Made by a program: the position numbers and the translations under genes
NCBI GenBank assembly: GCA_001825665.1
Contig: MHXZ01000115.1
Location: 1-35,100 of the forward strand
Source of the DNA: Planctomycetes bacterium GWF2_41_51
GTDB lineage: Bacteria; Planctomycetota; Phycisphaerae; Sedimentisphaerales; UBA12454
Reading direction: 5' to 3'
Length of the DNA: 35,100 bases
The notes under the pieces: model-generated
The model's input: only the letters and a program-made list of their open reading frames with translations
The model's database searches: none
What the model was told of the DNA's origin: nothing
In this document: piece after piece, positions 1 to 23,498 of the stretch
Position numbering within the stretch: the stretch's first letter is position 1
How the letters are laid out: the number at the start of each line of letters is the position of its first letter

Positions 1-233
1 CTTTGTAAATAACTGATTGCACCATAAATGAGCCATATAAGGGGCTTTAGCAATTATAGTGCCGAACAGAATTGGCAATTCGTTGCAAATTTTTCAAATT
101 CTTTCAAATTCGCTTTAATTACTTTTGTCGAATGCGCTTACGTCTTTCGCACTTGTCATAACTCCTTTATTTACGTATCTAATCATTCTATATTCTATGT
201 TCTTTATTCTGCGTTCTATTTTAATTTTTTTAG
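1..233. other. AT-rich stretch, no supported gene
   Basis: No convincing gene is visible here. The short open frames that exist are low-complexity, rich in Phe, Tyr, Asn and Ser, lack a ribosome binding site and match no family I recognise. The stretch contains a small heptameric TTCTNNN repeat (186-220) and a partial direct repeat of TTCAAATTC near 97-115. The end of an upstream gene beyond the window cannot be excluded but is not seen. Confidence 0.5.
186..220. repeat. TTCTNNN heptamer tandem repeat, five copies
   Basis: TTCT recurs at 186, 193, 200, 207 and 214, exactly every 7 bases, with variable triplets between. It is a short degenerate microsatellite in non-coding DNA. Its role is unknown; it lies just upstream of the putative cold-shock promoter. 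Confidence 0.6.
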
Positions 234-262
234 TTGCAATTAAGTACATAACCTGTTTTAAT
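234..262 (+). promoter_or_regulatory. Candidate sigma70-type promoter of the cold-shock gene
   Basis: TTGCAA (234-239), a 17-base spacer and TTTAAT (257-262) fit a vegetative promoter, and TG at 254-255 gives an extended -10. Transcription would start near 269 and leave a leader of about 220 nt, in keeping with the long leaders of cold-shock mRNAs. The call rests only on consensus matching in AT-rich DNA. Confidence 0.4.
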
Positions 263-339
263 AGTCTGATAATTTTTTCAAAATTAAATAATATGCTAAT
301 TCTGGAAGTATTATTTCACCTCTAAATAATATTACTGGT

Positions 340-427
340 CGCGATTGAATTTTCCCGTTAATCCGCGGTTAAGTGCTTTAAAATTAAACACTTACTTCAA
401 TCGCGGGATTTACTACCCTGAAGGGTA
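340..427 (+). promoter_or_regulatory. Structured 5' leader of the cold-shock mRNA
   Basis: Two perfect arms, CGCGATTGAA (340-349) and TTCAATCGCG (396-405), enclose a second stem, TAAGTG (370-375) with CACTTA (389-394), which continues past a bulged C as TTTA/TAAA. A third hairpin, TACCC/GGGTA, follows at 414-427. The structure sits between the candidate promoter and the ribosome binding site. Cold-shock leaders of other bacteria fold into alternative, temperature-dependent structures; this element could be a thermosensor, but only the pairing is seen. Confidence 0.55.
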
Positions 428-488
428 TGATTCCCCTAAATTTAAACCAGAGGTAAATTTTTTTTAGTACAATTTAAGGAGTACAAAA

Positions 489-692
489 GTGAGTACAGGC
501 AAAGTAAAATGGTTCAATTTAAGTAAAGGTTATGGTTTTATCACTCCTGATGGCGGCGGCGACGATTTGTTCGTTCACCATTCAGAAATTAAAACCCAGG
601 GCCGCGCAAATCTCAGCGAAGGCCAAAGCGTTACGTTTGAAGTCGGCCAGGGCAAAAAAGGCCCATGTGCTACAAATGTAGTTCCTGCCTAA
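489..692 (+). CDS. cspA: Cold-shock domain protein (CspA family)
   Basis: A 67-residue single cold-shock domain, the usual family length. The RNA-binding motifs are clear: [12 protein letters not shown] (RNP-1 type, residues 7-18) and DLFVHHSEI (RNP-2 type, about 26-34). Such proteins bind single-stranded RNA/DNA and act as cytoplasmic RNA chaperones or antiterminators. Translation starts at GTG, supported by AAGGAG at 476-481, seven bases upstream. The gene stands alone, with a long folded leader before it and a strong terminator directly after it. Whether it is cold-induced or constitutive cannot be told from sequence; the leader favours post-transcriptional control. Confidence 0.95.
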
Positions 693-716
693 GGTTACAA
701 CACAACTTTGACACAG

Positions 717-744
717 AAAGCCCTGATTTTTCAGGGCTTTTTTT
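717..744 (+). terminator. Intrinsic terminator of the cold-shock gene
   Basis: A perfect 10-bp stem, AAAGCCCTGA (717-726) and TCAGGGCTTT (731-740), has a TTTT loop and runs into a T tract ending at 744. It lies 25 bases after the stop codon. Confidence 0.9.
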
Positions 745-763
745 ATGCCTCCACCTCCCCTCT

Positions 764-885
764 TGTCATTTCGACCGGAACGCAGCGTTGGAGCCGAGCG
801 GAAACCCCATTTATGGGGGAAACCCCCGAGTTATTTAGAAAGTTTTTTGCCTTGAATAAAAACTTTTGAGGGGGGAGAAATCTTT
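764..885. repeat. Folded intergenic repeat-like element (TGTCATTTCGACCGG...GAGAAATCTTT)
   Basis: The ends, TGTCATTTCGACCGGAACGC at the left and GAGAAATCTTT at 875-885, resemble an intergenic repeat family that I recall from many bacterial genomes; that resemblance is from memory. Inside, CCCCAT (805-810) can pair with ATGGGG (813-818), and GGGGG (815-819) can instead pair with CCCCC (823-827). CCCCC can also pair with GGGGGG (870-875), closing a long stem that contains AAAGTTTTT (839-847) with AAAAACTTT (858-866). It encodes no protein. Other copies would have to be sought elsewhere in the genome. Confidence 0.5.
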
Positions 886-895
886 CAAAACCTTC

Positions 896-937
896 TACGA
901 ATTTTTTCGTTGACAATTACGAATTTATTCGTATAGT
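896..937 (+). promoter_or_regulatory. blaI promoter with two BlaI-operator-like dyads
   Basis: TTGACA (910-915), a 16-base spacer and TATAGT (932-937) form a strong sigma70-type promoter. A perfect dyad, TACGAATTTATTCGTA (918-933), fills the spacer and reaches into the -10. A near copy, TACGAATTTTTTCGTT (896-911), overlaps the -35 and is offset by 22 bp, about two helical turns. BlaI/MecI repressors bind dyads at their own promoters, so autorepression is the natural reading. The half-site TACGAAT is read here and is not the staphylococcal consensus. Confidence 0.75.
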
Positions 938-968
938 CTTTCTTGAGGTTTAAAAAGAAAGGAATTTT

Positions 969-1352
969 ATGCCGCGACATAAAATAATCGGCCCTACCGA
1001 AAAAGAGCTGGAAGTCCTTATGGTTCTTTGGGATACAGGCCCTGCCACAGTTCGGCAAATCAACGAACAAATCAACAAAAAACACAAAACCGGCTATACC
1101 ACAACCCTGAAAATCATGCAGATTATGACCGAAAAAGGCCTACTTATTCGCAACGATTCCGGCTTCCAACATATTTACCAGCCGACAGTTACAAAAGAAA
1201 ACATCCAGGAGCAATTAGTAGGCAGCCTGCTCGACCGCGCTTTCGCCGGTTCCGCGGAAAAATTAGTTATGAGGGCCCTTTCCGCCAAAAAAATCTCTCC
1301 GGAAGAATTAGCGAGGATCAAAAAATTACTGAATGAATTAAAGGAGAAATAA
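969..1352 (+). CDS. blaI: BlaI/MecI-family winged-helix repressor
   Basis: The 127-residue protein has the family's usual size and layout. An N-terminal winged helix (about residues 5-75) opens with TEKELEVLMVLW and includes the TVRQINEQI and GYTTTLKIMQIMTEKGLL segments. A C-terminal helical dimerisation part follows, with SAEKLVMRALSAKKISPEEL. In the known systems the dimer represses its operon until the partner protease BlaR1 triggers its cleavage. The start ATG follows AAAGAAAGGA. The gene lies one base before blaR1 and behind a promoter with two operator-like dyads, so this is a self-regulated signalling pair. No beta-lactamase gene is present in the window, so the regulated targets are probably elsewhere and may not concern antibiotics. 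Confidence 0.93.
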   Translation: MPRHKIIGPTEKELEVLMVLWDTGPATVRQINEQINKKHKTGYTTTLKIMQIMTEKGLLIRNDSGFQHIYQPTVTKENIQEQLVGSLLDRAFAGSAEKLVMRALSAKKISPEELARIKKLLNELKEK

Positions 1353-1353
1353 A

Positions 1354-4300
1354 ATGGAAATTTTGCATAACATATTTTTACAATCGATTGTTCAGCGTTT
1401 CGGCTGGACCCTGATTCACTTCACTTGGCAGGGAACTTTAATCGCGATTCTGCTTGCGATAGCTTTAAGACTGATGCGCAAATCATCTTCCAATGTTCGC
1501 TACACCGCCGCCTTTTTAGCTTTAGCTGTCATGGCAATTTTACCCTTAATCACAATAAGAATGATAAAAATTGCCGTTCCCGCCGCCAATCCAATTCTTT
1601 TGGCTGCAAACAATATTCAACCCCTCAAAATGACAAGTCAAATCGATACCTATCTCCCTCAGCCTAAACCACTTACAAAAACATCTTCACCCCCGAAATG
1701 GTCATTAAAAGACAGATTTATTAAGACCGCCGAATCACTTTTGCCGCATTTAGTTTGTTTCTGGCTTGCCGGCGTATTCATTTTAAGCATCTGGTATCTT
1801 GGCGGCTGGACGCAATTGCAGAGACTTCGCAGACAAATGGTTTCGCCGGTCTCCAATGAAATAACAGCAAAATTAAACCAGCTTTCACAAGTACTTGGCA
1901 TACATAAAGTAATCGATATTTTCCAATCCGTTTTAGTCGTTGTCCCAACGGTTATAGGCCATTTCAAACCTGTGATACTTTTACCCGCAAGCGCAATTAC
2001 AGGTTTGAGCACTGAGCAAATCTCTGCGATTCTCGCGCACGAGCTTGCCCATATAAAACGCTGCGATTATCTTATAAATATTTTGCAGACTGTTATTGAG
2101 ATACTCGGTTTTTATCACCCTGCCGTGTGGTGGGTTTCATGCAAAATCAGACAGGAGAGAGAAAACTGCTGCGACGACATCGCCGTCCAAATCACAGGCG
2201 ATAACATCAATTACGCCCGTGCTCTTGCAACAATGGAGGAAATCCGTTTTGGCAGTGGCAAACTGGCAGTCGCCGCAGCAGGCGGAAATTTATTTGAACG
2301 AATCAAAAGACTCCTCAGCGATAAAAATTCAAATATTGAAAAACGAAGCTGGCTGCCGTCTGCGATTGTAATTTTGCTGATTGCAGGTTTATTAATTCCA
2401 ATGACAATGACACTTAGCAGTTGTGATAAGCAAAAAATCGAACAGTCTGGAATGAACGCAAAGCTCAACAAAATTGATATCGATACTGCAACAAAAGATG
2501 ATGTCATAAAAATTTTCGGACAGCCGGAAAAATATGTTTGGGGCCAACAGGTTTTTGACAAAGAAAATCTTCCTAATCGATATGTAATGATTTATCCGGA
2601 TAATTTCCACGCGTTTATTGGTAATAATCACGTTGTAGAATTGCGGTTCGAAGGGCCGAGTGATTATGTTTTCGACGATGGTCTTACTGTCGATTCTTCT
2701 CTTGAAAAAGCTTTCGAAGTATTAGGAGGGCCAAAAGAAATTGTTGAAGGAAAAAATAACGAATTTTTAGATAATGTCTTTTACAAAAACATAGAAGGCA
2801 GAAAAGGCTACGGTTATTATGCAGTTCCCGAAAAAAATGTAAGAATCTGGATAGCTGATGATAAGGTAAAAGCAATATATTTAAGGCGAAGCAATTCCAG
2901 CGCAGGGCCAAACAGAAAATTAAGAGCCGATGAACTGCCCGAAGGCAGCATTATAGATGCCAATGGCCATATCGTTGACAAACTCGATCATCCGTTTGTA
3001 AACGATCCGCAGGTTTTAGGTACTTGGCAAAGTGTTGATTATGTCAGAGAGATTGAAAGTTTCAGGCCGAGTAAGAAACAATGGATTTACGGCAATCTGT
3101 TTTTAAAGGAAATGATATTTGAAGATAACGGCAAAGTACTTTCAAAAAATGAAAATATGCCGAATGGCTTCCCCGAAAAATGGACGAAAGGTTTGGTTTT
3201 ATATGATAATGACCAAAAAACCGCGTCGAAATATATAATCAAAGAAATTGACGATTCGCAATATATGTTCTTCGAGTGGAAAAGCGGCGATTATACCTTC
3301 CGCCATCAAAAACCCAGCTACTATGTTCTGAAAAAAGTCGAAGACGATACAAAAACAGATTCAGAACCAAACGAAATACTTATTTATCAAGTTAATAAAA
3401 GTGTCGCTGATTTTCCTGACAATGATTTTTCAACACCCGAATCTGCTTATGCGGCCGTAAACAAAATTTTAGGGTTCAATGATGTTCAAAAATTAGCAGC
3501 AGTAAGTCTTACACGACTTGGTGAAGGGGTTATTAAGGCTCAACTCAGTGACAATCCTTTGAGTCCGGAATGGATCAAAACGCTTGAAAATGCGCAAATT
3601 CTGGAAGTTATGATTTTGAAAGATAAAAACTATGCAGCGGTAATTGCAAAATTGCCGCAGGAATATTCCAGCGAGCCGATAAAAAAGCCTTTTGATTTAC
3701 GAGGTTTTAACTTTGAAAATGACAAATGGCTCAACCATGAAGACGGCAGAGTTCGAACATTAGAAGAAGCCAAGGCTATGTTGTCAGCAGATATGGATAA
3801 GACGAATGAGAAAGTTAAGAAGTTGGAAAATCGAACCTCATCTGCCAAAAGATTGTCCGAACTTGGCAAAAAGATGCTAACTTTCTCTAATGATAACAAC
3901 GAAAAATATTTTGAAAAACTCGCAGACTTAGCCAAAGCAGATGTCAATGAAACTGATTTAACATGGTTCGATGAAAATATTGTTTATTTAGGTAATAAGG
4001 TAGGATTGACAGACCCACCGAACGCCGTTCTTGCTTATGATGCGACTTTGCTTGAACAGGAAAACGGCGAAGGTACGAATGTTTTATATAACGATTTGCA
4101 TGTTGCTTTTGAAAAAACTGAAACACTTGAAAAGCTGGGAATAAAACGACAAGCAGAAACAGGTTCAGAACCTAACGTAATGCAAGTTTATGAGGTCAAC
4201 AAAAGTATCGCCGATTTTCTGGATAATCCCGGAGCGGAAAATGGAAAAGACGATTTGCCATCTTCATGGTTTAAAGCCTGCGTCCCTGCCGAGGGTTTAA

Positions 4301-5826
4301 AAATGTATCGCGATATGGAGAACGTTCATTCCGGAAAATATTCCTTTGCTATTGCCAATACGCATAAATATGACCAAACAGTAAGTAACAACTGGGCGCA
4401 AAATATTCAAAATGTGCCTGTTGGAAATGCCATTAAAGTCAGTGCATACATCAAAACCGAAAATGCCGACTCGGTAAATGTTTGCATCCAATGCTGGGGC
4501 CTTGGCAATACCGAAAACATGCTTGCATTTACAAGTACAAATACACTGAGCGGTGATAACAACTGGGGTTTATATGAAAGTCCGCCGGTTTTGGTGCCTG
4601 TTGATACTGTGAAAATTACAGTACGAGCCGTATTAACCGGCACAGGAAAAGTTTGGTTCGATGACATCAATGTAACTACAATTAATACATCGGATGAAAA
4701 TAAACAAAGTACATCATTTGGAAGCAACGCAGCTAATTTTAAACAAAAACTCCAAGAACCTGTAACCGTTCATATTGATAAAAGTCCGGGCAGCGACAAA
4801 TTAAGCGCGCAATATGCGGTGATTGCAATTTGCGAAGCGGTGAAAGTGCCCTATAATTGGGACAAATCAGCAAAACTGGCAGACCCGCAGAGAAGAAATT
4901 TCATCCAGCCTGTAAACATTGAAAACAAAGTTGCAGGTCAGGCAATTATGGATTTAATTGGGCCGGTGGGATTATCATACAGCGTAGATGAAAGTGGAGT
5001 TTATCTTTACAAACCCGAAAAAATACAGGCTGAAAGTAATTTTGAAATTCTCGATGTAAATTTCGAGCCGATTCGTCAGGGCAAAAATGTGCTGAACCTT
5101 GAAATTAAAAACAGCTCTGACACAGAACAGTTTTTGAAGGTGCACATTTACACTCGTTCTGTCGATTACGGCCCAGGCGGTGTCGGCTGGGGAACTGGTT
5201 TCTATGAAAAATTCGATGCCGGCCAAACTCTAAATCTGCGGTACGCTTATAAAATTCAGGGCCCGATTACCGAAAACACTTATATCAAATTATCTTTTTC
5301 CCAAGCGAAGTCTTTAATACATGACGAGAACAGGGAAATAAAAACGTTTTATGAAAAACAATATTCCGCAAAAGATTTGCCCTTTGCTCCTGTCGTTGTG
5401 AAGGAATGGAAGAACGAGGAAATGGCAAAAGAAGTTTGGAAGGTTTTTTATGCTTTTCAAAAAGCCATTAAAGGTGGTGATTATAAAAAAGCATGGAATA
5501 TCTTTTCAAATGACTATCAGCAATCTGAATATCAGATTAAAGGTTTCGAAGCTTTTAAGCAGCATATGGAACCGAAACATCCGCTCGATGCCGCCTTCCA
5601 CTGGGACAAAGAAATTCTAACAATGCTTAAATGGTCGGGCATCGATATAACTAACAGCACAATAAAAGAATCCGGCGGCCCTATAATGGAAGCAAAATAT
5701 AAAGATGAAATTTGGAAATTAAAATTTATACATGACCCATCGACAGACACATGGAGAATCGACGACATTACTGGCTACAAACCAGAAATTCTCGAAATCC
5801 AGCAGCAGGACGCAAAAAATAATTGA
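1354..5826 (+). CDS. blaR1: BlaR1-like M56 membrane metalloprotease with a giant multi-module tail
   Basis: At 1490 residues it is far longer than classical BlaR1/MecR1 (about 600). Membrane segments appear near residues 16-40, 47-72 and 130-152. The M56 zinc site is HELAH (229-233), with a downstream RENCCDD whose Glu270 is the likely third ligand. A last membrane segment (about 334-356) is followed by an extracytoplasmic region that lacks any penicillin-binding SxxK/SxN/KTG set I could recognise. In order this holds: SmpA-like small repeats (about 373-513), a beta-rich module ending YYVLKK (about 526-664), a module after QVNKSVADF (about 676), an H-X9-DG-like NVLYNDLHVAF stretch (about 909), a second copy of the linker, EVNKSIADF (about 945), a carbohydrate-binding-like sandwich (about 968-1109), an STN-like module (1136-1223) and an NTF2-like end (1360-1490). 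It probably senses an envelope ligand and signals to BlaI. AAGGAG at 1341-1346 supports the start. Confidence 0.88.
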   Translation: MEILHNIFLQSIVQRFGWTLIHFTWQGTLIAILLAIALRLMRKSSSNVRYTAAFLALAVMAILPLITIRMIKIAVPAANPILLAANNIQPLKMTSQIDTYLPQPKPLTKTSSPPKWSLKDRFIKTAESLLPHLVCFWLAGVFILSIWYLGGWTQLQRLRRQMVSPVSNEITAKLNQLSQVLGIHKVIDIFQSVLVVVPTVIGHFKPVILLPASAITGLSTEQISAILAHELAHIKRCDYLINILQTVIEILGFYHPAVWWVSCKIRQERENCCDDIAVQITGDNINYARALATMEEIRFGSGKLAVAAAGGNLFERIKRLLSDKNSNIEKRSWLPSAIVILLIAGLLIPMTMTLSSCDKQKIEQSGMNAKLNKIDIDTATKDDVIKIFGQPEKYVWGQQVFDKENLPNRYVMIYPDNFHAFIGNNHVVELRFEGPSDYVFDDGLTVDSSLEKAFEVLGGPKEIVEGKNNEFLDNVFYKNIEGRKGYGYYAVPEKNVRIWIADDKVKAIYLRRSNSSAGPNRKLRADELPEGSIIDANGHIVDKLDHPFVNDPQVLGTWQSVDYVREIESFRPSKKQWIYGNLFLKEMIFEDNGKVLSKNENMPNGFPEKWTKGLVLYDNDQKTASKYIIKEIDDSQYMFFEWKSGDYTFRHQKPSYYVLKKVEDDTKTDSEPNEILIYQVNKSVADFPDNDFSTPESAYAAVNKILGFNDVQKLAAVSLTRLGEGVIKAQLSDNPLSPEWIKTLENAQILEVMILKDKNYAAVIAKLPQEYSSEPIKKPFDLRGFNFENDKWLNHEDGRVRTLEEAKAMLSADMDKTNEKVKKLENRTSSAKRLSELGKKMLTFSNDNNEKYFEKLADLAKADVNETDLTWFDENIVYLGNKVGLTDPPNAVLAYDATLLEQENGEGTNVLYNDLHVAFEKTETLEKLGIKRQAETGSEPNVMQVYEVNKSIADFLDNPGAENGKDDLPSSWFKACVPAEGLKMYRDMENVHSGKYSFAIANTHKYDQTVSNNWAQNIQNVPVGNAIKVSAYIKTENADSVNVCIQCWGLGNTENMLAFTSTNTLSGDNNWGLYESPPVLVPVDTVKITVRAVLTGTGKVWFDDINVTTINTSDENKQSTSFGSNAANFKQKLQEPVTVHIDKSPGSDKLSAQYAVIAICEAVKVPYNWDKSAKLADPQRRNFIQPVNIENKVAGQAIMDLIGPVGLSYSVDESGVYLYKPEKIQAESNFEILDVNFEPIRQGKNVLNLEIKNSSDTEQFLKVHIYTRSVDYGPGGVGWGTGFYEKFDAGQTLNLRYAYKIQGPITENTYIKLSFSQAKSLIHDENREIKTFYEKQYSAKDLPFAPVVVKEWKNEEMAKEVWKVFYAFQKAIKGGDYKKAWNIFSNDYQQSEYQIKGFEAFKQHMEPKHPLDAAFHWDKEILTMLKWSGIDITNSTIKESGGPIMEAKYKDEIWKLKFIHDPSTDTWRIDDITGYKPEILEIQQQDAKNN

Positions 5827-5866
5827 AAATTATCTAATCGGCAAATCCAAACCACTTAACCATAAG

Positions 5867-5897
5867 CCTCCAATTTTATATTGGAGGTTAGTTTTTT
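5867..5897 (+). terminator. Intrinsic terminator after blaR1
   Basis: CCTCCAA (5867-5873) pairs with TTGGAGG (5881-5887) across a 7-base loop, followed by a T-rich tract to about 5897. It lies about 40 bases after the blaR1 stop. Confidence 0.75.
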
Positions 5898-6002
5898 CCA
5901 TATACCCATATCGTATTTCACGAAATTTTAGTATTTCAAATTTTGCACAGCATACTGTATTTTTCAGACCTATTAATCTCCTTCAACCTTACACTTTTAG
6001 AC

Positions 6003-6054
6003 CGCTTTTTTTCTGTCTTTCTTCGCTTTTTTTACACTCTAAGCCGCTTTTTTT
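6003..6054. repeat. Three CGCTTTTTTT tracts phased at 21 bp
   Basis: CGC followed by seven T residues begins at 6003, 6024 and 6045, exactly 21 bp apart (two helical turns). Two of the three also share an upstream TTACACT...CCGC context (5989-6012 and 6032-6054). Phased T tracts tend to bend DNA; the effect here is inferred, not shown. Confidence 0.6.
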
Positions 6055-6094
6055 AGCACTTTTTGGTCGTAAAATCGCAAAATACGCAAAATTC

Positions 6095-6124
6095 GCGCAA
6101 GTTTCCCAAACTTGCGCAATTTTT
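6095..6124 (+). terminator. Perfect hairpin with T tract upstream of pheA
   Basis: GCGCAAGTTT (6095-6104) and AAACTTGCGC (6108-6117) pair perfectly around a CCC loop and are followed by AATTTTT. It has the form of an intrinsic terminator about 100 bases before the pheA start. It could end readthrough from blaR1 or act as an attenuator for pheA. No leader peptide rich in Phe codons is visible, so attenuation is only a possibility. Confidence 0.55.
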
Positions 6125-6217
6125 ACTAACTACTGACTACTATTAAACTAATAATCGTTTGACTCTAACTCCTTATTATGGTAAACATTACCAGTTTTAG
6201 GGCTATTAGCTAATTCT

Positions 6218-7285
6218 ATGACTTTAGACGAACTACGCAATAAAATCGACCAGATAGACACAAGGCTCGTTGAGCTGTTAAATGAGCGTGCGCAAGTAGT
6301 TATAGAAATCGGCAAGGTAAAAGGCTCCGGCCCCATCTACGCCCCCGACCGCGAAAAAATCGTCCTCGAACGCATTGCAAAGCTCAATAAAGGCCCCCTG
6401 CCTGACAAGACGTTAAATGCTGTCTGGCGGGAACTTATGAGCGGTTCGTTCTTTCTCGAAAGGCCTTTGCGGATTGCTTTTTTAGGCCCGGAAGGCAGTT
6501 TTACCAATACTGCCGCTGTCCGCAAATTCGGCCAAAGTGTTGAGTATGAACCAGTTACAGACATTCGCGGCATTTTTGATGAAGTCAGCCGCGGCCATTG
6601 CGATTTGGGCGTTGTCCCGATTGAAAACTCCGCCGGCGGAGGCGTAATTGAAACTTTCGATGCGTTTGTCGATACGAGCGTTTTGATTTGCGCTGAGATG
6701 TATATGCCGATTCATCATAACCTCTTGGCAAACTGTGCTTTAAAAGAAGTACAGAAAGTTTATTCAAAACCGGAAGTTTTCGCGCAGTGCCGGCAATGGC
6801 TCAGTATGACTTTCAAGGAAGCCAATACTATACCAGTTGCCTCGACTGCCAAAGCCGCCCAAATGGCCGCTCAGGAAAAATTTTCGGCTGCGATAGGCTC
6901 CGATATCGCCGCTGAATTATACGATTTGAAAATTATCTGCGAAAACATCGAGGATACGACTAATAACGTAACTCGTTTTTTGATAATAAGTAAGGAAGAT
7001 GCAAGACCGAGCAGCGAAGACAAAACCTCGATACTTTTCAGTACCGCCCATAAAGCCGGTGCATTGGCGGATGTTCTGGATGTTTTCAAAAAACGGGAAG
7101 TGAATTTGACAAATATCGAATCTCGGCCGAGCAAAAAACGGCAATGGGAATATTATTTCTTTGTCGATTGCCAGGGGCATCGCAAAGATCAAAAATTAAT
7201 AGATTGTCTTGAAGAAGTAAAACAGCACTGCCTCCAGCTTTCGGTGCTCGGCAGTTATCCAAAAAGTGATATAATTTTAGAATAG
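6218..7285 (+). CDS. pheA: Bifunctional chorismate mutase / prephenate dehydratase
   Basis: The 355-residue P-protein converts chorismate to prephenate and then to phenylpyruvate, the phenylalanine branch. The chorismate mutase (AroQ) domain spans residues 1-80 (LDELRNKIDQIDTRLVELLN). The dehydratase domain begins at IAFLGPEGSFT (about 84) and includes GVVPIENS and the catalytic-loop TRF motif (252-254). The ACT domain (about 268-347) contains GALADVL and the phenylalanine-binding ESRPSKK, so feedback inhibition is expected. It is followed 14 bases later by tpiA and heads a tight gene block. The ribosome binding site is weak: AGGG at 6199-6202 is rather far from the ATG. A folded region lies upstream. 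Confidence 0.96.
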   Translation: MTLDELRNKIDQIDTRLVELLNERAQVVIEIGKVKGSGPIYAPDREKIVLERIAKLNKGPLPDKTLNAVWRELMSGSFFLERPLRIAFLGPEGSFTNTAAVRKFGQSVEYEPVTDIRGIFDEVSRGHCDLGVVPIENSAGGGVIETFDAFVDTSVLICAEMYMPIHHNLLANCALKEVQKVYSKPEVFAQCRQWLSMTFKEANTIPVASTAKAAQMAAQEKFSAAIGSDIAAELYDLKIICENIEDTTNNVTRFLIISKEDARPSSEDKTSILFSTAHKAGALADVLDVFKKREVNLTNIESRPSKKRQWEYYFFVDCQGHRKDQKLIDCLEEVKQHCLQLSVLGSYPKSDIILE

Positions 7286-15242: not shown

Positions 15243-16365
15243 ATGGAAACAATAGAAATTAAACAATCGGTACAAAATTTGAGGACTCGGATAACAAAAA
15301 TCCGGGAGTGGCTTTGACATCTCTGCAAAACAAGCCGAAAGGCTACAACTCGAACATCAAATGTCCCAGCCCGGCTTTTGGGACAATCAGGACATCGCAA
15401 AATCGGTAGTTTCGAAGGTGAGTGCTTTAAAAGCATTCATCGACCCCGTTGTTGATGCCGAGAAAAAAATCGTCGATATGTCTGAGCTTTTGGAAATCGC
15501 GCTGGAAGAATCCGACCAGCAGATTTTAAACGATATCGAACAAGATATTGGCGTTCTCGAAAAAAAATGCGGACAAATCGAATTGACAGGACTTCTCAGC
15601 GGCCAGGACGATATGAGAAACTGTTTTTTCAGTATTCATGCAGGCGCCGGCGGAACTGAAAGCTGCGACTGGGTTAGTATGCTTCTGCGTATGTACACCA
15701 GATTCTTTCAGCAGAACAAATTCAGTTATGAAGAGCTTGATATGACGCCGGGCGAAGAAGCGGGTCTGCGTTCAGTTATGCTGAAAGTCAGCGGGCCTTT
15801 TTCTTTCGGTAAACTTTCCTGCGAATCAGGCGTCCATCGTTTAGTGCGAATCAGTCCTTTCGATGCGAATAAAAGAAGGCATACAAGTTTTGCAGCAGTT
15901 GACGTTATGCCCGAATACGAAGATGATGTCGCCGTTGAAATTGACGATAAGGATTTGAGGATTGATTTCTTTCGTGCCGGCGGCGCAGGCGGTCAGCACG
16001 TCAATAAAACAAGTTCCGCGGTTCGTATCACGCATTTTCCAAGCGGAATTGTAACACAATGCCAGAATGACCGCAGCCAGCATCGCAACAAAGCAGAGGC
16101 AATGAAAATGCTCAAGGGAAAACTTTATATGCTCGAACAGCAGAAACGCGATTCCGAACTTGCAAAACTCTACGGCAACAAAGGCGAAATCGCATGGGGC
16201 AACCAGATTCGCAGCTATGTTCTTCAGCCCTATCAATTGGTTAAAGATCATCGAACCGATTTTCAAACCGGAAATGTTGAAGCGGTTCTCGACGGCGATA
16301 TCGAAGATTTTATCGACAGCTACCTGCAATACCGCGCCGAGAAAAAACATAAACAAAATAAATAA
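15243..16365 (+). CDS. prfB: Peptide chain release factor 2, with programmed +1 frameshift
   Basis: Translation from ATG 15243 gives 24 codons ending in CTT, then an in-frame TGA (15315-15317). A +1 slip at CTTTGAC continues at GAC 15316 and yields a 373-residue protein, the normal RF2 size. The stop-recognition tripeptide SPF is at residues 204-206 and the peptidyl-hydrolysis GGQ at 249-251, both almost exactly as in E. coli. RF2 releases peptides at UAA and UGA, and low RF2 favours the shift, giving autoregulation. The frame after the shift also contains an ATG at 15361, but a start there would lose the conserved N-terminal helices. It follows DUF1638 and precedes a DUF502 gene. Confidence 0.96.
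15303..15318 (+). promoter_or_regulatory. prfB programmed frameshift site
   Basis: CGGGAGTGGCTTTGAC corresponds base for base to the classical AGGGGGTATCTTTGAC. A Shine-Dalgarno-like CGGGAG (15303-15308) lies three bases before CTT, followed by TGA and C. The CTT-TGA-C slippage core is intact; the internal Shine-Dalgarno is slightly weaker than in E. coli. Confidence 0.93.
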
Positions 16366-16401
16366 TCGAACACGTATTAATTTTGCAGGCAAGGAGCGAA
16401 T

Positions 16402-16941
16402 ATGAAACGATTGATAGGTTATTTTCTTAAAGGGCTTTTAGTTTTTGTCCCGGCTGCCATAACCGTTTTAATTATATTTTGGGCTATTAAAGAATTCGAC
16501 AGCCTTTTAGGAAGCCCGATTCCCGGCCTTGGTTTTATCGCTGCGCTTGCGTTCATTACGCTGATTGGTTTTTTGGCATCCAACTACATAGGTAATAAAT
16601 TATTTTTACTTTTGGATAAACTTTTTACAAGATTGCCGGTTATTAAAATGTTCTACGCCGCAATCAGGGATTTGATTCAGGCTTTTGCGGGCGAAAGAAA
16701 AAGTTTCGATAAGCCTGTAATTGTCGAACTTACCACCGGCGGCCCAAAGGCAATAGGATTTATTACGCAGGAAGATTTAGGGTTTTTATCTATGCCCGGA
16801 AATGTTGCAGTTTATTTTCCGCAATCGTATAATTTCGCAGGTTCAGTTTTAATTTTTCCGGCCGAAAGAGTCGCTCCTATGAATATCGAAAGTTCAAAAG
16901 CTATGACTTTCGTTGTTTCAGGCGGAGTTTCAGGAAAATAA
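16402..16941 (+). CDS. DUF502 family membrane protein
   Basis: A 179-residue inner-membrane protein with two membrane helices (about residues 7-28 and 43-62), then a soluble domain. The family pattern is visible in GLLVFVPAAITVLIIFWA, LFTRLPVIKMFYAAIRDL and the Gly/Pro-containing FLSMPGNVAVYFPQSYNFAGS. The biochemical function is unknown; bacterial and plant relatives exist. AAGGAG at 16391-16396 supports the start. It sits 36 bases after prfB. Confidence 0.9.
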   Translation: MKRLIGYFLKGLLVFVPAAITVLIIFWAIKEFDSLLGSPIPGLGFIAALAFITLIGFLASNYIGNKLFLLLDKLFTRLPVIKMFYAAIRDLIQAFAGERKSFDKPVIVELTTGGPKAIGFITQEDLGFLSMPGNVAVYFPQSYNFAGSVLIFPAERVAPMNIESSKAMTFVVSGGVSGK

Positions 16942-17009
16942 TCCGTGAAATCTTCAGAATGAGCGATTAAAATAAGTGCATAATTTTTTTTAGTTTTTTA
17001 GGAGCAGTT

Positions 17010-18524
17010 ATGACTATGAAAATTGATGTTAAAGCCGCTAAAGCGGATGTGTTGAAATTTAAAGCTGATTGTTTGGCTTTTGGTGTTTACAGTGATGTAA
17101 AAAACAGCGACATTCTCGAATCGCTCGATAAAAAACTTGAAGGTGCAATTTCACGATTAAAAAAACTCGGCGATTTCAAAGCGAAAGCAGGAAGCAGCAT
17201 TTTCCTTTACACTCACGGTAAGATTGCCGCTGAACGAATTTTACTCATCGGCTTCGGCGAGAAGAAAACCGCAACAATGGACACTTTCAGAAAGACCGCA
17301 TCGAAAGCAGCTTATGAAGCAATAAACGTTGGCGCAAAAACACTTGCGATTTGCCTGCATTATGACGAACAGGACAGTAATTTTGAAAAACTTGGAAAAG
17401 TCATTGCAGAAGCTGTTCATTTCGGCGCATACAGATATGACGAATTTCTTACATCAACAGAAAATGGCGGGAGCAAATCTCTTTCAGTAACTGTAATCAA
17501 TGACAGTCAGAAAAATATTGTAAAGCTTGCAGCAGGTATAAAAATCGGTCAGGTTATCGCAAAAGCACAAAATTACGCCAGAACACTTTGCAACCGCCCC
17601 GCCAATGTTTTATATCCCGCACAATTTGCCGCCGAAGCAAAAAAAATCGCAGCTTCTGTTCAAGGACTCAGATGCACCGTTATCGATGAAAAACAAATGG
17701 CACAAAAAAATATGGGCGGCATTTTATCCGTTGGCAAAGGCTCGATTAACAAGCCGCGAATGATAATCATCAAATACACACCGAAAGGCAAAGCAAAAAA
17801 TTCCGAGCCGATAGCCCTCGTCGGCAAAGCTATAACATTCGATTCGGGTGGAATAAGCATAAAGCCATCGGGCGATATGCATGAAATGAAATACGATATG
17901 ACCGGCGGCGCAGCAGTTCTTATGACGATGCAGATTATTGCGGCTTTGAAACTGCCGTTGAATGTTTACGGGATTATTTGTGCCGCGGAGAACAGACCTG
18001 ATGGCGGAAGCTTCCTGCCGGGCGATATCATTACAACCTTCAGCGGCAAAACCATCGAAGTCCTCAACACCGATGCCGAAGGCAGATTGGTTTTAAGTGA
18101 TGGATTGGAACAGGCAAGACAATTGAAATGCAAAACGGCGATTGATATCGCGACACTGACAGGCGCATGCGTCGTCGCTCTTGGCAAACACAAAGCCGGA
18201 CTTTTCAGCAATGACGAAAAACTCACTGAAAAACTCAAAGCCGCCGCCGCAGACAGCAGCGAACCGGTCTGGCAATTGCCTTATGAACAACTTTATGCCG
18301 ATGAAATTAAAGGCAAAATCGCGGACTTGAAAAATATTGGCGGAAGATGGGGCGGCGCCTGCATCGGTGCGGCCTTTGTCGGCGAGTTCGCAAAAGATAT
18401 GGCATGGGCACATCTCGACATCGCAGGACCAATGGACGCATCAGACCCCATGAAAAGCTATACACAGGCAGGCTCAATCGGTTTCGGTGTCCGGCTTCTG
18501 ACAAGTTATCTGATGAATTATTAG
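17010..18524 (+). CDS. pepA: Leucyl aminopeptidase (M17 family)
   Basis: At 504 residues it has the usual cytosolic leucine aminopeptidase length. The enzyme removes N-terminal residues from peptides and forms hexamers. The C-terminal catalytic domain has [17 protein letters not shown] and YDMTGGAAV (metal and catalytic residues) and the family signature NTDAEGRL at 353-360. The N-terminal domain (about 1-165) is of the macro-like fold expected for M17. AGGAG precedes the ATG; a second in-frame ATG lies two codons on. folE follows after 10 bases. Confidence 0.96.
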
Positions 18525-18534
18525 AAAGTTTACA

Positions 18535-19107
18535 ATGGCTAAAAAAAAGGTAGATATTGGAAAAATTGAAAAAGCAGTAACGGATATTCTTCTGGCGATT
18601 GGCGAAGACATTAACAGGGAAGGCCTTAAACTTACGCCGAAACGTGTCGCCGGAATGTATGCAGAATTGCTCGCCGGAGAATCGGAAGACCCGACTCAAT
18701 ACATAAAAAGCGTTTTCAATGAAAAATGCGATGAAATAATTTTGCTTCGTGACATCCCCTTTTACAGTGTTTGCGAACACCACATGATGCCCTTCATCGG
18801 CAAAGCTCACGTCGCTTATTTGCCGCAGGATTGCGTTCTCGGCGTAAGCAAACTTGCGCGTGTTGTCGATTGTTTCGCACGAAGGCTTCAGATTCAGGAA
18901 AGATTGACCTCGCAAATCGCGGATTTTCTTATTGAGCATATAAATCCCCAGGGCGTCGCTGTCGTCATCGAAGCATCGCATAGCTGCATGACAATTCGCG
19001 GAATTAAGAAACCCGGCTCAACAATGGTGACAAGTGCGCTTCGTGGAATCTTCAAGAAAGACCCCCGAAGCAGAGCGGAAGTTTTAAGCCTGATGCACAA
19101 TGCATAA
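18535..19107 (+). CDS. folE: GTP cyclohydrolase I
   Basis: The 190-residue enzyme turns GTP into 7,8-dihydroneopterin triphosphate, the entry to folate and to queuosine/deazapurine pathways. Zinc ligands Cys80 and His83 (VCEHHMMPF) and Cys151 ([10 protein letters not shown]) are present, together with [11 protein letters not shown] near the N terminus and the C-terminal [12 protein letters not shown]. The last 8 bases overlap the start of the T-fold gene, so the two are translationally coupled and probably act in sequence. Confidence 0.97.
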
Positions 19108-19915
19108 ACTATCGAGACAGGTGCGTTTTGCGATTGACCCTTTAGCCGGTTCTCAGGAAATGGGCGCAAATTCATATTGTGCAAAACCTACATCCGAAGG
19201 TCTTGCATTTTATTTCTCATTATGGGTACAGCTCGAAAGCGATGCCGACCCGGATACAGGTTTTGTTGTCAATGTTACAGAGATTGATAGAGTTATCAGA
19301 GGCAAAGTTGTCTCGCTGTTTGAAAAGTTTGTGAAAAAAAAATTAGCCCTCGGCTCAGCCGGGGGGTTTTTTTCTGCCGTTCAAGGCATTTTAAGTGAAT
19401 CCTGGCAAACTATCGAAAATGACTTTTTACCTGCTAAAATCAGCAGTCTTTGCGTCGAACTTATGCCCTCAAGAAAAATCACAATTAAAGAAAGGACAGG
19501 CGGTATGCTTTACTTTTCTGAAAAATTCGAATTTTCCTCAAGCCACACTTTATGGAACAATAAATTTTCAGACGCTGAGAATTTTAAAATATTCGGCAAA
19601 TGCGCTAACCTCCGCGGCCACGGACACAATTACATTATCGAGGTAACAATAAAAACAACTCAACCGAGTCGCGACCATAATGAAGCGGTCAATGCCGGCC
19701 AATTCCAGCGTATAGTCGATAAATATTTTATGAATATTGTCGACCATAAAAATTTGAACGAAGATGTGGAATATTTCAAAAAAGCCAATCCTACGGTTGA
19801 AAATATCGCGGAATTTGCGTTCAAAAGCCTTGAAGGAAAATTCGATTCCTGCGAACTTGATTGCGTTACTGTTTGGGAAAACGACCGCACTTTTTGCACT
19901 TACCGAAACGATTAA
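19100..19915 (+). CDS. queD: Tandem T-fold 6-pyruvoyltetrahydropterin synthase / QueD-like protein
   Basis: The 271-residue protein is two T-fold domains in a row. The C-terminal domain (about 136-271) is complete: zinc ligands His149 and His174/His176 (GHGHNY), nucleophile Cys168 (FGKC), VDHKNLNED and PTVENIAEF. The N-terminal domain (about 1-130) keeps the [16 protein letters not shown] and TIENDFLPA positions but lacks the zinc histidines, so it is probably non-catalytic. QueD makes 6-carboxytetrahydropterin from the FolE product, whereas PTPS makes a related pterin; I cannot choose between them with certainty. A terminator-like hairpin lies between the domains (19347-19373). An internal ATG at 19505, with AAAGGA at 19491, could start the C-terminal domain alone. 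Confidence 0.85.
19347..19373 (+). terminator. Terminator-like hairpin inside the T-fold gene
   Basis: CCCTCGGC (19347-19354) pairs with GCCGGGGG (19358-19365) around TCA, allowing one G-T pair, and is followed by a T7 run (19367-19373). It has the form of an intrinsic terminator but lies within an open frame. Transcripts could end here, leaving only the N-terminal domain coding region; alternatively it is incidental or suppressed by translation. Confidence 0.5.
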
Positions 19916-19917
19916 TC

Positions 19918-20715
19918 TCAATAGTTCGGTTTTGTCTTTCGTCTTGCAGAAAACTTTTTAGAATATTTTTTAACTCTGCGTACAAGTTTCTCAATCTTCT
20001 CAGGCTTTTCTTTTCCTGCGTAAGTTTCAATAAGCTTTCTTCGTATCGGCTCATCGAAATACTTATCAATCATACTGTAATGAAGCCTGCCGAGGTCTTC
20101 CATCTTCTCGTTTGGGTTCGTTACGTGTCTTTTCATTCTGTTTAAGTCGATAAACGAAAATGTATATTCCTCATTCTCCCTGCTTATAAATATATGCCAT
20201 ACATATAAATCCGGAAGGCTTATCCAGCTATTATGAATTTTTTTAATTTCATTCCCAAGCGATTTAATCAAATTTTCCTTTTCCTCGCCTGTCATTTGCC
20301 CCCAGTTTTGTGCGATGAAGTCTGTAAGGCATTGTCCCTTTAGTTCTTCGGTTATGATAAACGATTTTCTTTCGAATCCCAATCGAAGCTGCTCACCAAA
20401 GCAAACACAATGCGGTGCTCCGATATTATTTTTCTCAAGCAGTTTGATATTGCTCCACTCAAAAGCAGCCTGTGTACAGAATTTCCCAGTGTTCAAAAAA
20501 GCGAATATCGTATCTTTTAAATGACAATGACGGAACCGTTTTAAGAAGAAGTTTTTATCTACACCATCAATTTTCAACTGAAAGATACTGACATTCCGCC
20601 TGTGATTGCTGTTTATGCGTTTTTTTTGTATGCGATGATAGAAATCTTCAAACGTTTTCAAACCGTTTTCGGCAAAAATCTTCTTCCATGTATCCGAACA
20701 AAAAACTTTTTCCAT
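19918..20715 (-). CDS. WaaP/InaA-like lipopolysaccharide core kinase family protein
   Basis: The 265-residue protein resembles the Kdo/WaaP kinase family, which has a protein-kinase-like fold. Visible features are NFFLKRFRH (about 54-62, with the likely ATP-binding Lys), SFIITEELKGQCLTDFI (hinge) and the catalytic-region pattern LPDLYVWHIFI followed by FSFIDLNRMKR (about 165-195). The C terminus is Lys/Arg-rich (KKYSKKFSARRKTK). The family phosphorylates lipopolysaccharide core sugars; the actual acceptor here is unknown. It starts one base after the lepA stop, on the same strand, so it is probably co-transcribed with lepA, an odd pairing. Confidence 0.8.
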   Translation of the reverse strand: MEKVFCSDTWKKIFAENGLKTFEDFYHRIQKKRINSNHRRNVSIFQLKIDGVDKNFFLKRFRHCHLKDTIFAFLNTGKFCTQAAFEWSNIKLLEKNNIGAPHCVCFGEQLRLGFERKSFIITEELKGQCLTDFIAQNWGQMTGEEKENLIKSLGNEIKKIHNSWISLPDLYVWHIFISRENEEYTFSFIDLNRMKRHVTNPNEKMEDLGRLHYSMIDKYFDEPIRRKLIETYAGKEKPEKIEKLVRRVKKYSKKFSARRKTKPNY

Positions 20716-20716
20716 T

Positions 20717-22513
20717 TTATTCGCTTGTATCGAGAATGCTCATAAAGGCTTTTTGAGGAATCTGCACGCTGCCTATATTTTTCATTCTCTTTTTGCCTTC
20801 CTTTTGTTTTTTCAATACTTTCATTTTACGTGTAACGTCGCCGCCGTAAAGTTTCGCGGTTACGTCTTTTCTGAAAGCCTTAATCGATTCACGCGCGATA
20901 ATTTTGCCGCCGATTGCCGCCTGCAATGGAATTTCGAACTGATGGCGGGGAATTGCTTTACGAAGTTTAAGCAGCAGTTTTCTGCCTCGCGATTCGGCAT
21001 TGGAACGATGCACGATAAGGCTTAAAGCGTCAACTGCGTCTTTATTAATAAGAATTTCAATTCGTACAAGGTCTGCCGCTTCGAAGCCTAAAAGCTCATA
21101 ATCCATCGTCGCGTAGCCTTTGCTTATGCCCTTGAGCTGGTCATAAAAATCATAAACGATTTCGGCAAGGGGAGCACGGAACACCATCATCACACGCGTA
21201 ACACTGATATAATCAGTTTTCAAAAGCACGCATCTTCGCTGCTCTGCTAACTGCATAATCGCGCCAATTCCGTCTTTTGGCGTTATAATTTCAAGTTTAA
21301 CAATCGGTTCGCGCAGCTCCTCGATTTTTGTCGGCTCCGGAAGCTGACTTGGCGAATCGACTCTGATTACTTCGTTGTCAGTGGTGAGAATTTCATAAGT
21401 TACCGTCGGCGCGGTCTGAACGACTTCGATATCGTTCTCGCGTTCGAGACGCTCCTGTATAATTTCCATGTGCAGCATACCGAGAAAACCGCAGCGAAAA
21501 CCGAAACCAAGCGCAGGACTGTTCTGCGGGAAAAACGAAAAGCTCGCATCGTTCAGTGAAAGTTTTTCAAAAGCCGAGCGAAGCTGCGTATATTCCGTAT
21601 TATTGCCGGGATAAAAATCACTGAACACCATCTGCTGCGGTTTCTTATACCCGGGCAGAGGCTTTTCAGCGGGATCGCTTACAAGCGTTATAGTATCGCC
21701 GATTGTAACATCTGAAAGATTTCTGATACTCGCGATTACATAACCTACTTCGCCGGGACCGAGTGAATCAGTGCGCTTCATTGATGGTGTAAATTTGCCC
21801 AGGTCGGAAATGAGATAAGTGCGTGCCGAACCCATCATTTTTATTTTCTGCCCCGGCAAAAGAGTACCTGAAAAAACTCTTACATAGCAAATAACGCCGC
21901 GATAGTCGTCGAAATGACTATCAAAAATCAGCGCTTTGAGGTGCGGGTCATTGTCCGGTTTTGGCCCAGGCATAAGAGTAACAATTGCATCAAGCAGTTC
22001 ATCTATGCCAATACCGCTTTTTGCGCTGATATGAAAACATTCATTTTTATTAATGCCGAGTGTGTGCTCGATTTCCTCACCCACAACATCCGCCTGTGCC
22101 GCAGGCAAATCAATTTTATTTATGACAGGAATTATCTCCAGACCGCAATCGACTGCCAGATACGCATTCGCCAAAGTTTGAGCTTCGACACCCTGCGTTG
22201 CATCGACAACGAGAATCGCGCCTTCACATGCCGTCATCGAACGCGAAACTTCGTAATGAAAATCTACGTGGCCGGGTGTATCGATAAGGTTCAGCATATA
22301 ATCTTTGCCGTCACGACTGTAATTCATCGTTACCGCCGAAGCCTTGACCGTTATGCCGCGTTCACGCTCGATGTCCATACTGTCGAGCATCTGCTCCTTG
22401 AACTCGCGCTGGCTGACTGTACCCGTCATCAGCAGAAGCCTGTCAGCTAACGTGCTCTTACCATGGTCTATGTGTGCTATAATGCAAAAATTTCGTATAT
22501 TCTCTATATTCAT
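20717..22513 (-). CDS. lepA: Elongation factor 4 (LepA)
   Basis: The 598-residue translational GTPase has the standard LepA length. The G1 motif AHIDHGKST is at residues 13-21, followed by ERERGITV (G2), DTPGHVDF (G3) and NKIDLPAA (G4). The C-terminal LepA-specific domain includes YGGDVTRKMKVLKKQKEGKK. LepA acts on stalled or mistranslocated ribosomes and in ribosome assembly. A promoter-like TATAAT is seen upstream on the minus strand; the Shine-Dalgarno is weak. Confidence 0.98.
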   Translation of the reverse strand: MNIENIRNFCIIAHIDHGKSTLADRLLLMTGTVSQREFKEQMLDSMDIERERGITVKASAVTMNYSRDGKDYMLNLIDTPGHVDFHYEVSRSMTACEGAILVVDATQGVEAQTLANAYLAVDCGLEIIPVINKIDLPAAQADVVGEEIEHTLGINKNECFHISAKSGIGIDELLDAIVTLMPGPKPDNDPHLKALIFDSHFDDYRGVICYVRVFSGTLLPGQKIKMMGSARTYLISDLGKFTPSMKRTDSLGPGEVGYVIASIRNLSDVTIGDTITLVSDPAEKPLPGYKKPQQMVFSDFYPGNNTEYTQLRSAFEKLSLNDASFSFFPQNSPALGFGFRCGFLGMLHMEIIQERLERENDIEVVQTAPTVTYEILTTDNEVIRVDSPSQLPEPTKIEELREPIVKLEIITPKDGIGAIMQLAEQRRCVLLKTDYISVTRVMMVFRAPLAEIVYDFYDQLKGISKGYATMDYELLGFEAADLVRIEILINKDAVDALSLIVHRSNAESRGRKLLLKLRKAIPRHQFEIPLQAAIGGKIIARESIKAFRKDVTAKLYGGDVTRKMKVLKKQKEGKKRMKNIGSVQIPQKAFMSILDTSE

Positions 22514-22542
22514 AAGTCTTTTTCAGGGAAATTAAAGATATT

Positions 22543-22570
22543 ATTATAACTACTTGTTTTTCCAAAGCAA
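22543..22570 (-). promoter_or_regulatory. Candidate lepA promoter
   Basis: On the minus strand TTGCTT (22570-22565), a 16-base spacer and a consensus TATAAT (22548-22543) precede the lepA ATG by about 30 bases. The -10 is perfect and the -35 is weak. Confidence 0.45.
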
Positions 22571-22664
22571 TAACGCTCTTGGGAAGTTAGGCAATAATAT
22601 ATTTATACTGCTCAAACCATCTTTGTTCATTAAATTTGTAGTTATCGGGATTTTTTCAAACGTT

Positions 22665-22687
22665 TCTGGTACAATGCTCGTACAGAG
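22665..22687 (+). promoter_or_regulatory. Candidate extended -10 promoter with GTAC dyad
   Basis: TGG-TACAAT (22667-22675) is an extended -10 without a good -35. An imperfect dyad, TCTGGTAC (22665-22672) and GTACAGA (22680-22686), overlaps it and could be an operator. It precedes the Cys-rich genes. GTAC-containing dyads occur in some copper-response sites, but no specific regulator can be named. Confidence 0.3.
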
Positions 22688-22713
22688 TATCAAGACATCT
22701 AAATACGGTATTA

Positions 22714-23127
22714 ATGAAATCAAAAACAAAAAAGATTTTAATATTATCACTGTCATTTATTGCAGCCGCAATTTTAACCGGCTATTTATATGCCGATTGC
22801 AGAGGAAAATGCGGCGAATCACACACATCCTGCCATATTAAAAAAACATCTCAAATAACAGAACAAGGCTGCTGTCATTCATCAAAACCTCTGCCGCAAA
22901 AAACATCGCAGGAGAAATGCGGGGGCAAAGGAGTATGCTGTTTTAACAATCTTCCTCCAGCCGCGACAATTAACTCGCAAAATCTAAATAATTCTTTCAT
23001 TAACGTCCTTTTCAAAAATTGTTTAACCGAATTAAATTCCAATTTGCCGGCTGAGATTTCGTCAACCGGTTCACCTCTTCAATTATATAAAAATACACAG
23101 GCAGTTCTGTGCGTTTTCGTAATCTAA
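22714..23127 (+). CDS. Small exported Cys-rich protein
   Basis: The 137-residue protein of no recognised family begins with a positively charged stretch and a hydrophobic segment (about residues 8-26, ILILSLSFIAAAILTGYLY), a signal peptide or membrane anchor. It then has ten Cys residues, eight of them within residues 29-75, including DCRGKC and two CC pairs. The C-terminal half is Asn/Ser-rich and ends in a hydrophobic VLCVFVI. The pattern suggests metal binding or disulfide formation outside the cytoplasm; this is inference. There is no clear Shine-Dalgarno. A second Cys-rich exported protein follows 66 bases later, so they may form a unit. Confidence 0.65.
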   Translation: MKSKTKKILILSLSFIAAAILTGYLYADCRGKCGESHTSCHIKKTSQITEQGCCHSSKPLPQKTSQEKCGGKGVCCFNNLPPAATINSQNLNNSFINVLFKNCLTELNSNLPAEISSTGSPLQLYKNTQAVLCVFVI

Positions 23128-23193
23128 GATTCGCCGAAAAATCTGCTTCTATTATAAAATTAATTTAATCAAATTTTTTTCGGAGAATTTTGA

Positions 23194-23457: not shown

Positions 23458-23470
23458 TTGAAAAATAAAA

Positions 23471-23496
23471 GGCTCGGATTATTCCGGGCCTTTTTT
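23471..23496 (+). terminator. Intrinsic terminator after the Cys-rich genes
   Basis: GGCTCGG (23471-23477) pairs with CCGGGCC (23484-23490), with one G-T pair, followed by six T. An A run on the other side lets it serve the convergent hemW as well. Confidence 0.88.
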
Positions 23497-23498
23497 AT

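Follow-up and report, generated by a model that had tools for sequence, protein, structure and literature searches.

A putative self-contained BlaI-M56 switch in a planctomycete: a BlaR1-type protease core with an exchangeable modular tail

What might a receptor respond to when it carries the membrane protease of the antibiotic sensor BlaR1 and, where a penicillin-binding domain would be expected, about 1130 residues of other modules? The question is raised by a stretch of 35,100 nucleotides (the window, in what follows) from Planctomycetes bacterium GWF2_41_51, order Sedimentisphaerales (assembly GCA_001825665.1, contig MHXZ01000115.1, positions 1 to 35,100 of the forward strand), in which the gene of a BlaI-type repressor ends one base before that of an M56 receptor. 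An earlier note had seen in this receptor a giant BlaR1-type sensor, paired with BlaI, that might belong to a broad envelope- or polysaccharide-sensing system and not detect antibiotics. With moderate confidence, we favour a proteolytic BlaI-M56 switch that is self-contained, retains the BlaR1 core and carries exchangeable outer modules; what looks like an antibiotic sensor is probably a receptor frame of a general kind.

The receptor is encoded by a single intact open reading frame with no internal stop. Its BlaR1-type core, already recognized in the note by the motif HELAH at residues 229-233, is secure: the Peptidase_M56 profile (PF05569) matches residues 28-317 with 116.8 bits against a curated cut-off of 31, and the nearest solved structure is BlaR1 itself (8exs). 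Alignment places H229, E230, H233, E270 and D274 on BlaR1 H201, E202, H205, E242 and D246, and by this alignment the gluzincin zinc site, HEXXH plus ExxxD, is complete (motif definition and BlaR1 numbering as in the accessible part of PMC9834060). The two histidines, the glutamate between them and the third-ligand glutamate are kept in all 37 aligned cores, among which L025 and L088 represent one and the same gene. Homology to 8exs suggests a four-helix topology with the tail outside and the protease inside. The NCBIfam BlaR1 profile (NF000326) reached 103 bits against a cut-off of 400, and only its positions 12-337 of 585 were matched.

Beyond the core, Pfam and NCBIfam gave no match above cut-off in residues 357-1490, and residues 359-1490 were modelled as two pieces (mean predicted local distance difference test scores, pLDDT, of 76.6 and 73.2), the folds being compared by VIA-align. 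Eight modules, A to H, cover this region (Table 1), which the note had described as some 1130 residues of stacked modules. What it called SmpA-like is module A, a predicted DUF4309/BamE-like double repeat (DUF4309 YjgB, 4ygt, Z 9.2; 4ifa, Z 9.8) with relatives that match DUF4309 below cut-off. Its YYVLKK beta module, our B, is a real and widespread domain: it is a clear sequence family, with invariant G-W, SGD and P-YYVL positions across 15 rows, has tandem copies in Elusimicrobia proteins and follows an M56 core in Anaerocolumna, while its fold finds only weak lipocalin-type matches. The NTF2-like fold is present, but in two modules, C and H, and not in one; PBP2a also matches at C, but only through its residues 27-130, outside the transpeptidase part. 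As for the H-X9-DG-like motif, a relative of module D (L056) does pass TIGR04294, but the window reads the degenerate N-X9-DL in its place and the receptor has no TIGR04294 match up to E 1. The carbohydrate-binding-like sandwich is recovered as module E, with a fold of the type of carbohydrate-binding module (CBM) family 22 (Z about 8); E itself matches no CBM profile up to E 1, and it is homologous modules in L098 that match CBM_4_9 (PF02018, E 4e-18). The STN-like assignment survives for module F as a likeness of fold to 3cdd, whose domain we take to be linked to STN/N0, and not as a Pfam match (STN, PF07660: none); the immunoglobulin-like (Ig-like) sandwich, G, was absent from the earlier list. 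Several fold matches lie near the level where a common arrangement suffices, and those other than A and C are therefore to be taken as leads.

The linker (Q/E)VNKS(V/I)ADF, which the note had found twice, belongs to a 74-nucleotide direct repeat. Its copies flank the C-D pair; the second copy amounts to the opening of a C module with E behind it, and a repeat so placed at module edges fits duplication or recombination there. The modules of the window are found elsewhere beside subtilase, GH39-like, GH129-like (glycoside hydrolase, GH) and metallopeptidase-like sequences, the last label (L055) being our own reading of the sequence, and also as rows of up to seven matches, one partial. Among relatives of module D, L056 (6223-10779) is itself an M56 protein with seven module D matches in its tail, one of them partial. 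A homology of D with the pseudopilins that we describe below in two congeners (L038, L039) was considered and set aside as weak (hhalign probability 28%).

No penicillin-binding domain was recognised in the receptor by sequence profiles, and the note, too, had seen none. No transpeptidase or class D beta-lactamase was matched by profile or by Protein Data Bank (PDB) sequence outside the core; the fold lists of the tail models hold no transpeptidase domain, which does not exclude one since such a fold could be absent from these lists; and modules A to H fill the whole tail, leaving unassigned stretches smaller than a transpeptidase domain.

The repressor is a genuine Penicillinase_R protein, so that the pairing with BlaI proposed earlier holds (Table 1). 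In front of its gene, two palindromes of the type TACGAA-N4-TTCGT straddle the best promoter, the −35 box overlapping the first and the second occupying the spacer; this promoter ties for best in a consensus scan that gave 17 matches where 14.3 were expected. At the level of sequence, blaI and the M56 gene are neighbours, and the promoter that precedes them is overlapped by operator-like palindromes. A search of the entire draft genome (4.83 Mb) finds the exact pattern, TACGAANNNNTTCGT, only at these two sites (three strand matches, against nine for the reversed control). With one mismatch allowed in the full palindrome, seven more places appear, each of them within an open frame of 100 residues or more; taken as a whole, this relaxed pattern has 9 places, fewer than the 29 of its reversed control. 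An exact operator at its own promoter only argues against a broad regulon, and the genome-wide regulon that the note had envisaged was not borne out; by its operators, the blaI-M56 unit is apparently closed and autoregulated, controlling only itself. No beta-lactamase or penicillin-binding protein (PBP) was seen as a target of the operator, and an Rfam search of positions 1-7000 returned zero matches. Of the seven one-mismatch places, the one in L110 is close to the beginning of its frame. The same genome has a second M56 gene (L049:6674-11872, G000:C53; 1732 residues) whose tail has carboxypeptidase-regulatory, CARDB and ankyrin modules, and whose blaI has a different upstream palindrome, CTACATCTGTAG.

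The relatives show what has been kept and what has not. The tandem operator is present in 13 of 59 (16 forward matches, against 5 for the reversed control), and 15 of the 16 matches lie upstream of a blaI-M56 pair of a single clade, the exception being G053:C7; among the 15, the assignment of G051 relies on a fragment of the M56 gene where a contig ends, and in G055 two matches overlap each other ahead of a truncated M56 gene. In a tree of the 37 cores, the 13 operator-bearing ones (12 with the consensus, G044:C83 with a variant) form an exclusive clade with support 0.93, and the 24 others fall outside. Every pair of clade cores can be aligned (78/78, 36-76% identity), whereas similarity between tails, at E 1e-5, is found in 20 of the 78 pairs and is mostly partial, one of the 13 tails (G049:C89) being cut by a contig end. 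Five tails have secretin domains (PF00263, E down to 3e-44; Table 1), and others have leucine-rich repeats (L045, L091), HEAT repeats (L043, L044), a lipocalin-like module (L054) or carboxypeptidase-regulatory modules (L045, L047). Three loci have tandem M56 genes (L042:3161-10471, L046:4312-12546, L048:3075-12606), the second in the operator clade and the first outside it. At the level of sequence, these comparisons show a common ancestry for the core and operator of the clade, with a modular tail.

Length, on the other hand, is nothing special. Within the order, 115 of the 148 genomes have M56 genes, and the 150 frames listed, which are ordered by score and hence do not give a full length distribution, have a median of 1023 residues, with 30 of at least 1490 and a maximum of 4353; a sample of the phylum (79 of 149 genomes with an M56 match) has a median of 805 residues among the 150 frames likewise listed. 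The protein of 1490 residues may well be called giant, but its size is ordinary for its order; what is distinctive is a core kept while the tail was exchanged.

Two details of the clade deserve separate mention. In G055 a split receptor was considered and rejected in favour of a truncation, as the M56 frame stops at 111 residues and the next gene is of the Eco57I restriction-modification type (operator, blaI, M56 stump and this gene lie in this order in L100:2257-6952). In all 13 members, the loop at the position of the BlaR1 autocleavage site (Phe284) reads AVAAxGG, and the repressor residue at the position of BlaI Phe102 (we take the BlaI cleavage site to be Asn101-Phe102) is mostly alanine, both positions being phenylalanine in Staphylococcus aureus; the alignment of the receptor loop can shift by one, and these small residues are a lead only.

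Exchange can be followed most closely between congeners. The window has the core followed by A to H, G001 has core-B-E-F-G-H, and G002 has core-A-B-A-C with a secretin end, so that the core-A-B junction of the window recurs there. The unit has also changed place: a prfB-pepA-folE-...-kinase-lepA-hemW stretch is conserved between the window (15361-24611) and G001 (prfB, pepA, lepA and hemW were named by search, folE and the kinase are our own reading), and both G001 and G002 have the operon in the interval from the kinase to lepA. The window has a single base between these two genes, and its operon, flanked by a cold-shock gene and a gene reading as pheA, lies about 15 kb away. Operator, blaI and M56 gene were kept together despite this different position. 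In both congeners, two pseudopilin-like genes and the gene of a 195-residue protein lie between operator and blaI (L038:5820-8245, L039:7642-10046). That protein was not found in the genome of the window; it is present in 9 of 59 genomes, and elsewhere than in G001 and G002 its gene is on contigs separate from the M56 genes of the clade. The window itself also encodes, at 32629-34521, a 630-residue protein with GspD/PilQ-type secretin similarity below curated cut-offs.

Table 1. Coordinates of the blaI-M56 operon, its control elements and the parts of the receptor in the window, with the secretin fusions of the clade.
Feature	Position	Strand	Basis
Operator site 1, TACGAATTTTTTCGTT	896..911	+	palindromic; one of two exact sites in genome
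Promoter: TTGACA 910-915, TATAGT 932-937	910..937	+	consensus scan, 11/12 positions
Operator site 2, TACGAATTTATTCGTA	918..933	+	perfect palindrome
BlaI/Penicillinase_R repressor, 127 residues	969..1352	+	PF03965 93 bits, cut-off 22.6; BlaI 1sd4, MecI 1okr
M56 receptor with eight-module tail	1354..5826	+	1490 residues, ATG start; open reading frame and translation
M56 membrane protease core, residues 1-358	1354..2427	+	Pfam; BlaR1 8exs match, E 8e-10
HELAH, residues 229-233, zinc site	2038..2052	+	sequence; alignment to BlaR1
Third zinc ligand E270 (BlaR1 E242)	2161..2163	+	alignment to BlaR1
L-S-S-C, residues 354-357, lipobox-like, after last hydrophobic segment	2413..2424	+	alignment of relatives
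Module A, residues 359-515, DUF4309/BamE-like double repeat (predicted)	2428..2898	+	model fold; homologues beside subtilase domains
Module B, residues 520-668, YYVLKK beta module, lipocalin-like at best	2911..3357	+	sequence family; model fold
Direct repeat copy 1, 74 nucleotides, (Q/E)VNKS(V/I)ADF linker	3350..3423	+	repeat search
Module C, residues 669-800, NTF2-like (predicted)	3358..3753	+	YchJ 9vxg, Z 10.7
Module D, residues 801-948, long helix and small sheet, degenerate H-X9-DG/pseudopilin-type (lead)	3754..4197	+	sequence and model
Direct repeat copy 2, 77% identical	4154..4227	+	repeat search
Module E, residues 949-1115, CBM-like jelly roll (lead)	4198..4698	+	relatives' profiles; model fold
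Module F, residues 1116-1226, STN/N0-like (lead)	4699..5031	+	3cdd, Z 9.1, root-mean-square deviation 2.0, 83 residues
Module G, residues 1227-1335, Ig-like sandwich (lead)	5032..5358	+	Ig-like domains of GH2 enzymes, Z about 9
Module H, residues 1336-1490, NTF2-like (lead)	5359..5823	+	3ub1, Z 7.8, weak
Terminator-like hairpin with T run	5865..5889	+	12 such found, 6.6 expected
M56 core-secretin fusions of relatives	L042:6830-10471, L046:7639-12546, L048:5944-12606, L040:8378-12178, L038:8657-12667		PF00263

How would such a unit work? The best reading is that of a portable and self-inducing BlaI-M56 switch. Dimers of BlaI, seated on the two operators that straddle the −35 box, would keep the two-gene operon that encodes them silent; when one or more of the outer modules binds something or comes under stress, the last membrane helix would shift and the cytoplasmic gluzincin site open; the opened protease would cleave BlaI, and the derepressed operon would yield more receptor and more repressor until the signal ends. 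Isolated BlaR1 protein cleaves BlaI directly (PMC9834060, in its accessible part), and on this analogy a signal reaching the outer modules should lead to an opened protease, loss of BlaI and stronger expression of the operon; both the proteolysis by the M56 core and the direction of signalling would be carried over from BlaR1. One core with unrelated tails suggests that the trigger is a general one.

Several points weigh against this picture. A sensor controlling itself alone has no obvious output. Degenerate operators may exist elsewhere in what is a draft genome, 95.6% complete. With the pseudopilin cassette of G001 and G002, the unit does not strictly consist of two genes everywhere, and the module folds are predictions of moderate confidence. 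The output may consist of targets with degenerate operators, or the tail may itself be the product that matters.

The latter option leads to a rival that we consider unlikely, namely that the tail is an output and not a sensor. The switch would then induce envelope proteins, and the tail, released or anchored after processing by autocleavage or, in this genus, by a lipoprotein route at L-S-S-C, would act in the periplasm or the outer membrane. The exact operator at no other target would be natural under this hypothesis, as would secretin domains, which act in the outer membrane, in 5 of 13 clade tails, and the pair of pseudopilin genes between operator and blaI in G001 and G002; the lipobox-like L-S-S-C, too, is found in the three congeners having this core. 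It is limited to them, however, the other clade members displayed being without it, and many tails consist simply of interaction modules. The idea that the last helix is generally of a cleavable, signal-peptide-like kind was tried and rejected: A-x-A occurs there in 9 of 37 cores and at a control helix in 10, in a poor test since the reference row of the alignment stopped at residue 352 and did not reach the lipobox. A bolder variant, which we hold to be rather improbable, would make of operator, blaI and M56 core a portable control cassette able to pick up secreted modules, envelope modules and, with the two pseudopilins, even entire genes, the tail, secretins included, being a self-induced and proteolytically released product and the receptor its own regulated effector.

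Equally doubtful, in our view, is the broad sensor of envelope or polysaccharide, with a genome-wide regulon behind target operators too degenerate for the patterns used. Part of the earlier proposal stands, in that the tail is made of module kinds known from envelope, secreted and carbohydrate-binding proteins; the CBM-like module E has relatives beside glycoside hydrolase domains, and operator variants are tolerated in this BlaI clade (G049:C172, G044:C83). The breadth does not: the strict operator is restricted to its own promoter, and the seven other one-mismatch places all fall inside open frames. Nor can polysaccharide be the common ligand, since a single CBM-like module is found among the eight and most clade relatives lack it.

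A beta-lactam sensor, relying on a partner protein or on an acylation site that escaped recognition, seems to us very improbable. It would account for a core and a repressor that are relatives of BlaR1 and BlaI, and a Mycobacterium tuberculosis homologue without sensor domain is still discussed for beta-lactam detection (PMC9834060, as far as its accessible text goes); the profile and PDB sequence searches described above found no transpeptidase or class D beta-lactamase, the BlaR1 profile stops with the core, and the PBP2a matches stay clear of its transpeptidase part. An assembly or sequencing artefact fusing two or more genes, finally, is very unlikely and may be dismissed: nothing was found in its favour, and continuous core-plus-tail frames recur in 13 of 13 clade members (the window included, one frame being cut at a contig end), with core-A-B again in G002 and B-E-F-G-H in G001.

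The self-contained switch that we prefer has known counterparts. BlaR1/BlaI and MecR1/MecI of staphylococci and Bacillus licheniformis share with the window the M56 gluzincin core with HEXXH and ExxxD, the adjacent BlaI-type repressor and the operator at its own promoter (accessible parts of PMC9834060 and PMC7593790). They differ in having the class D-like sensor domain that could not be recognised here, its place being taken by other modules, and the operator of the window, ACGAA-N4-TTCGT, has no beta-lactamase or PBP target in sight. Cyanobacterial PetR/PetP, a BlaI-like factor and a BlaR1-like protease responding to copper, are a BlaI-M56 pair in non-beta-lactam use, and show that such pairs can answer to signals other than antibiotics while governing a small regulon; their targets are photosynthetic electron carriers, and the accessible part of PMC7896320 describes no stacked modular tail on PetP. 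The M. tuberculosis homologue likewise has an M56 core without penicillin-binding domain, but, as far as PMC9834060 could be consulted, nothing equivalent to the sensor domain, where the window has other modules. An Anaerocolumna protein (L062), with module B behind the core, resembles the window on a small scale: 495 residues, a single module, another phylum. A literature search, with most subscription papers outside its reach, turned up no work on M56 receptors of modular build from Planctomycetota.

The clade has kept the BlaR1 core, the repressor and the operator across several families of the order while the outer part was exchanged almost freely, secretin fusions included. If the core does signal with such different tails, then the last helix, in BlaR1-type signalling, must be triggered in a general way and not in one specific to penicillin. 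In the papers cited here, BlaR1 figures as a sensor of antibiotics; a gene of an environmental genome that bears the label 'BlaR1' or 'beta-lactam sensor' may be unrelated to resistance.

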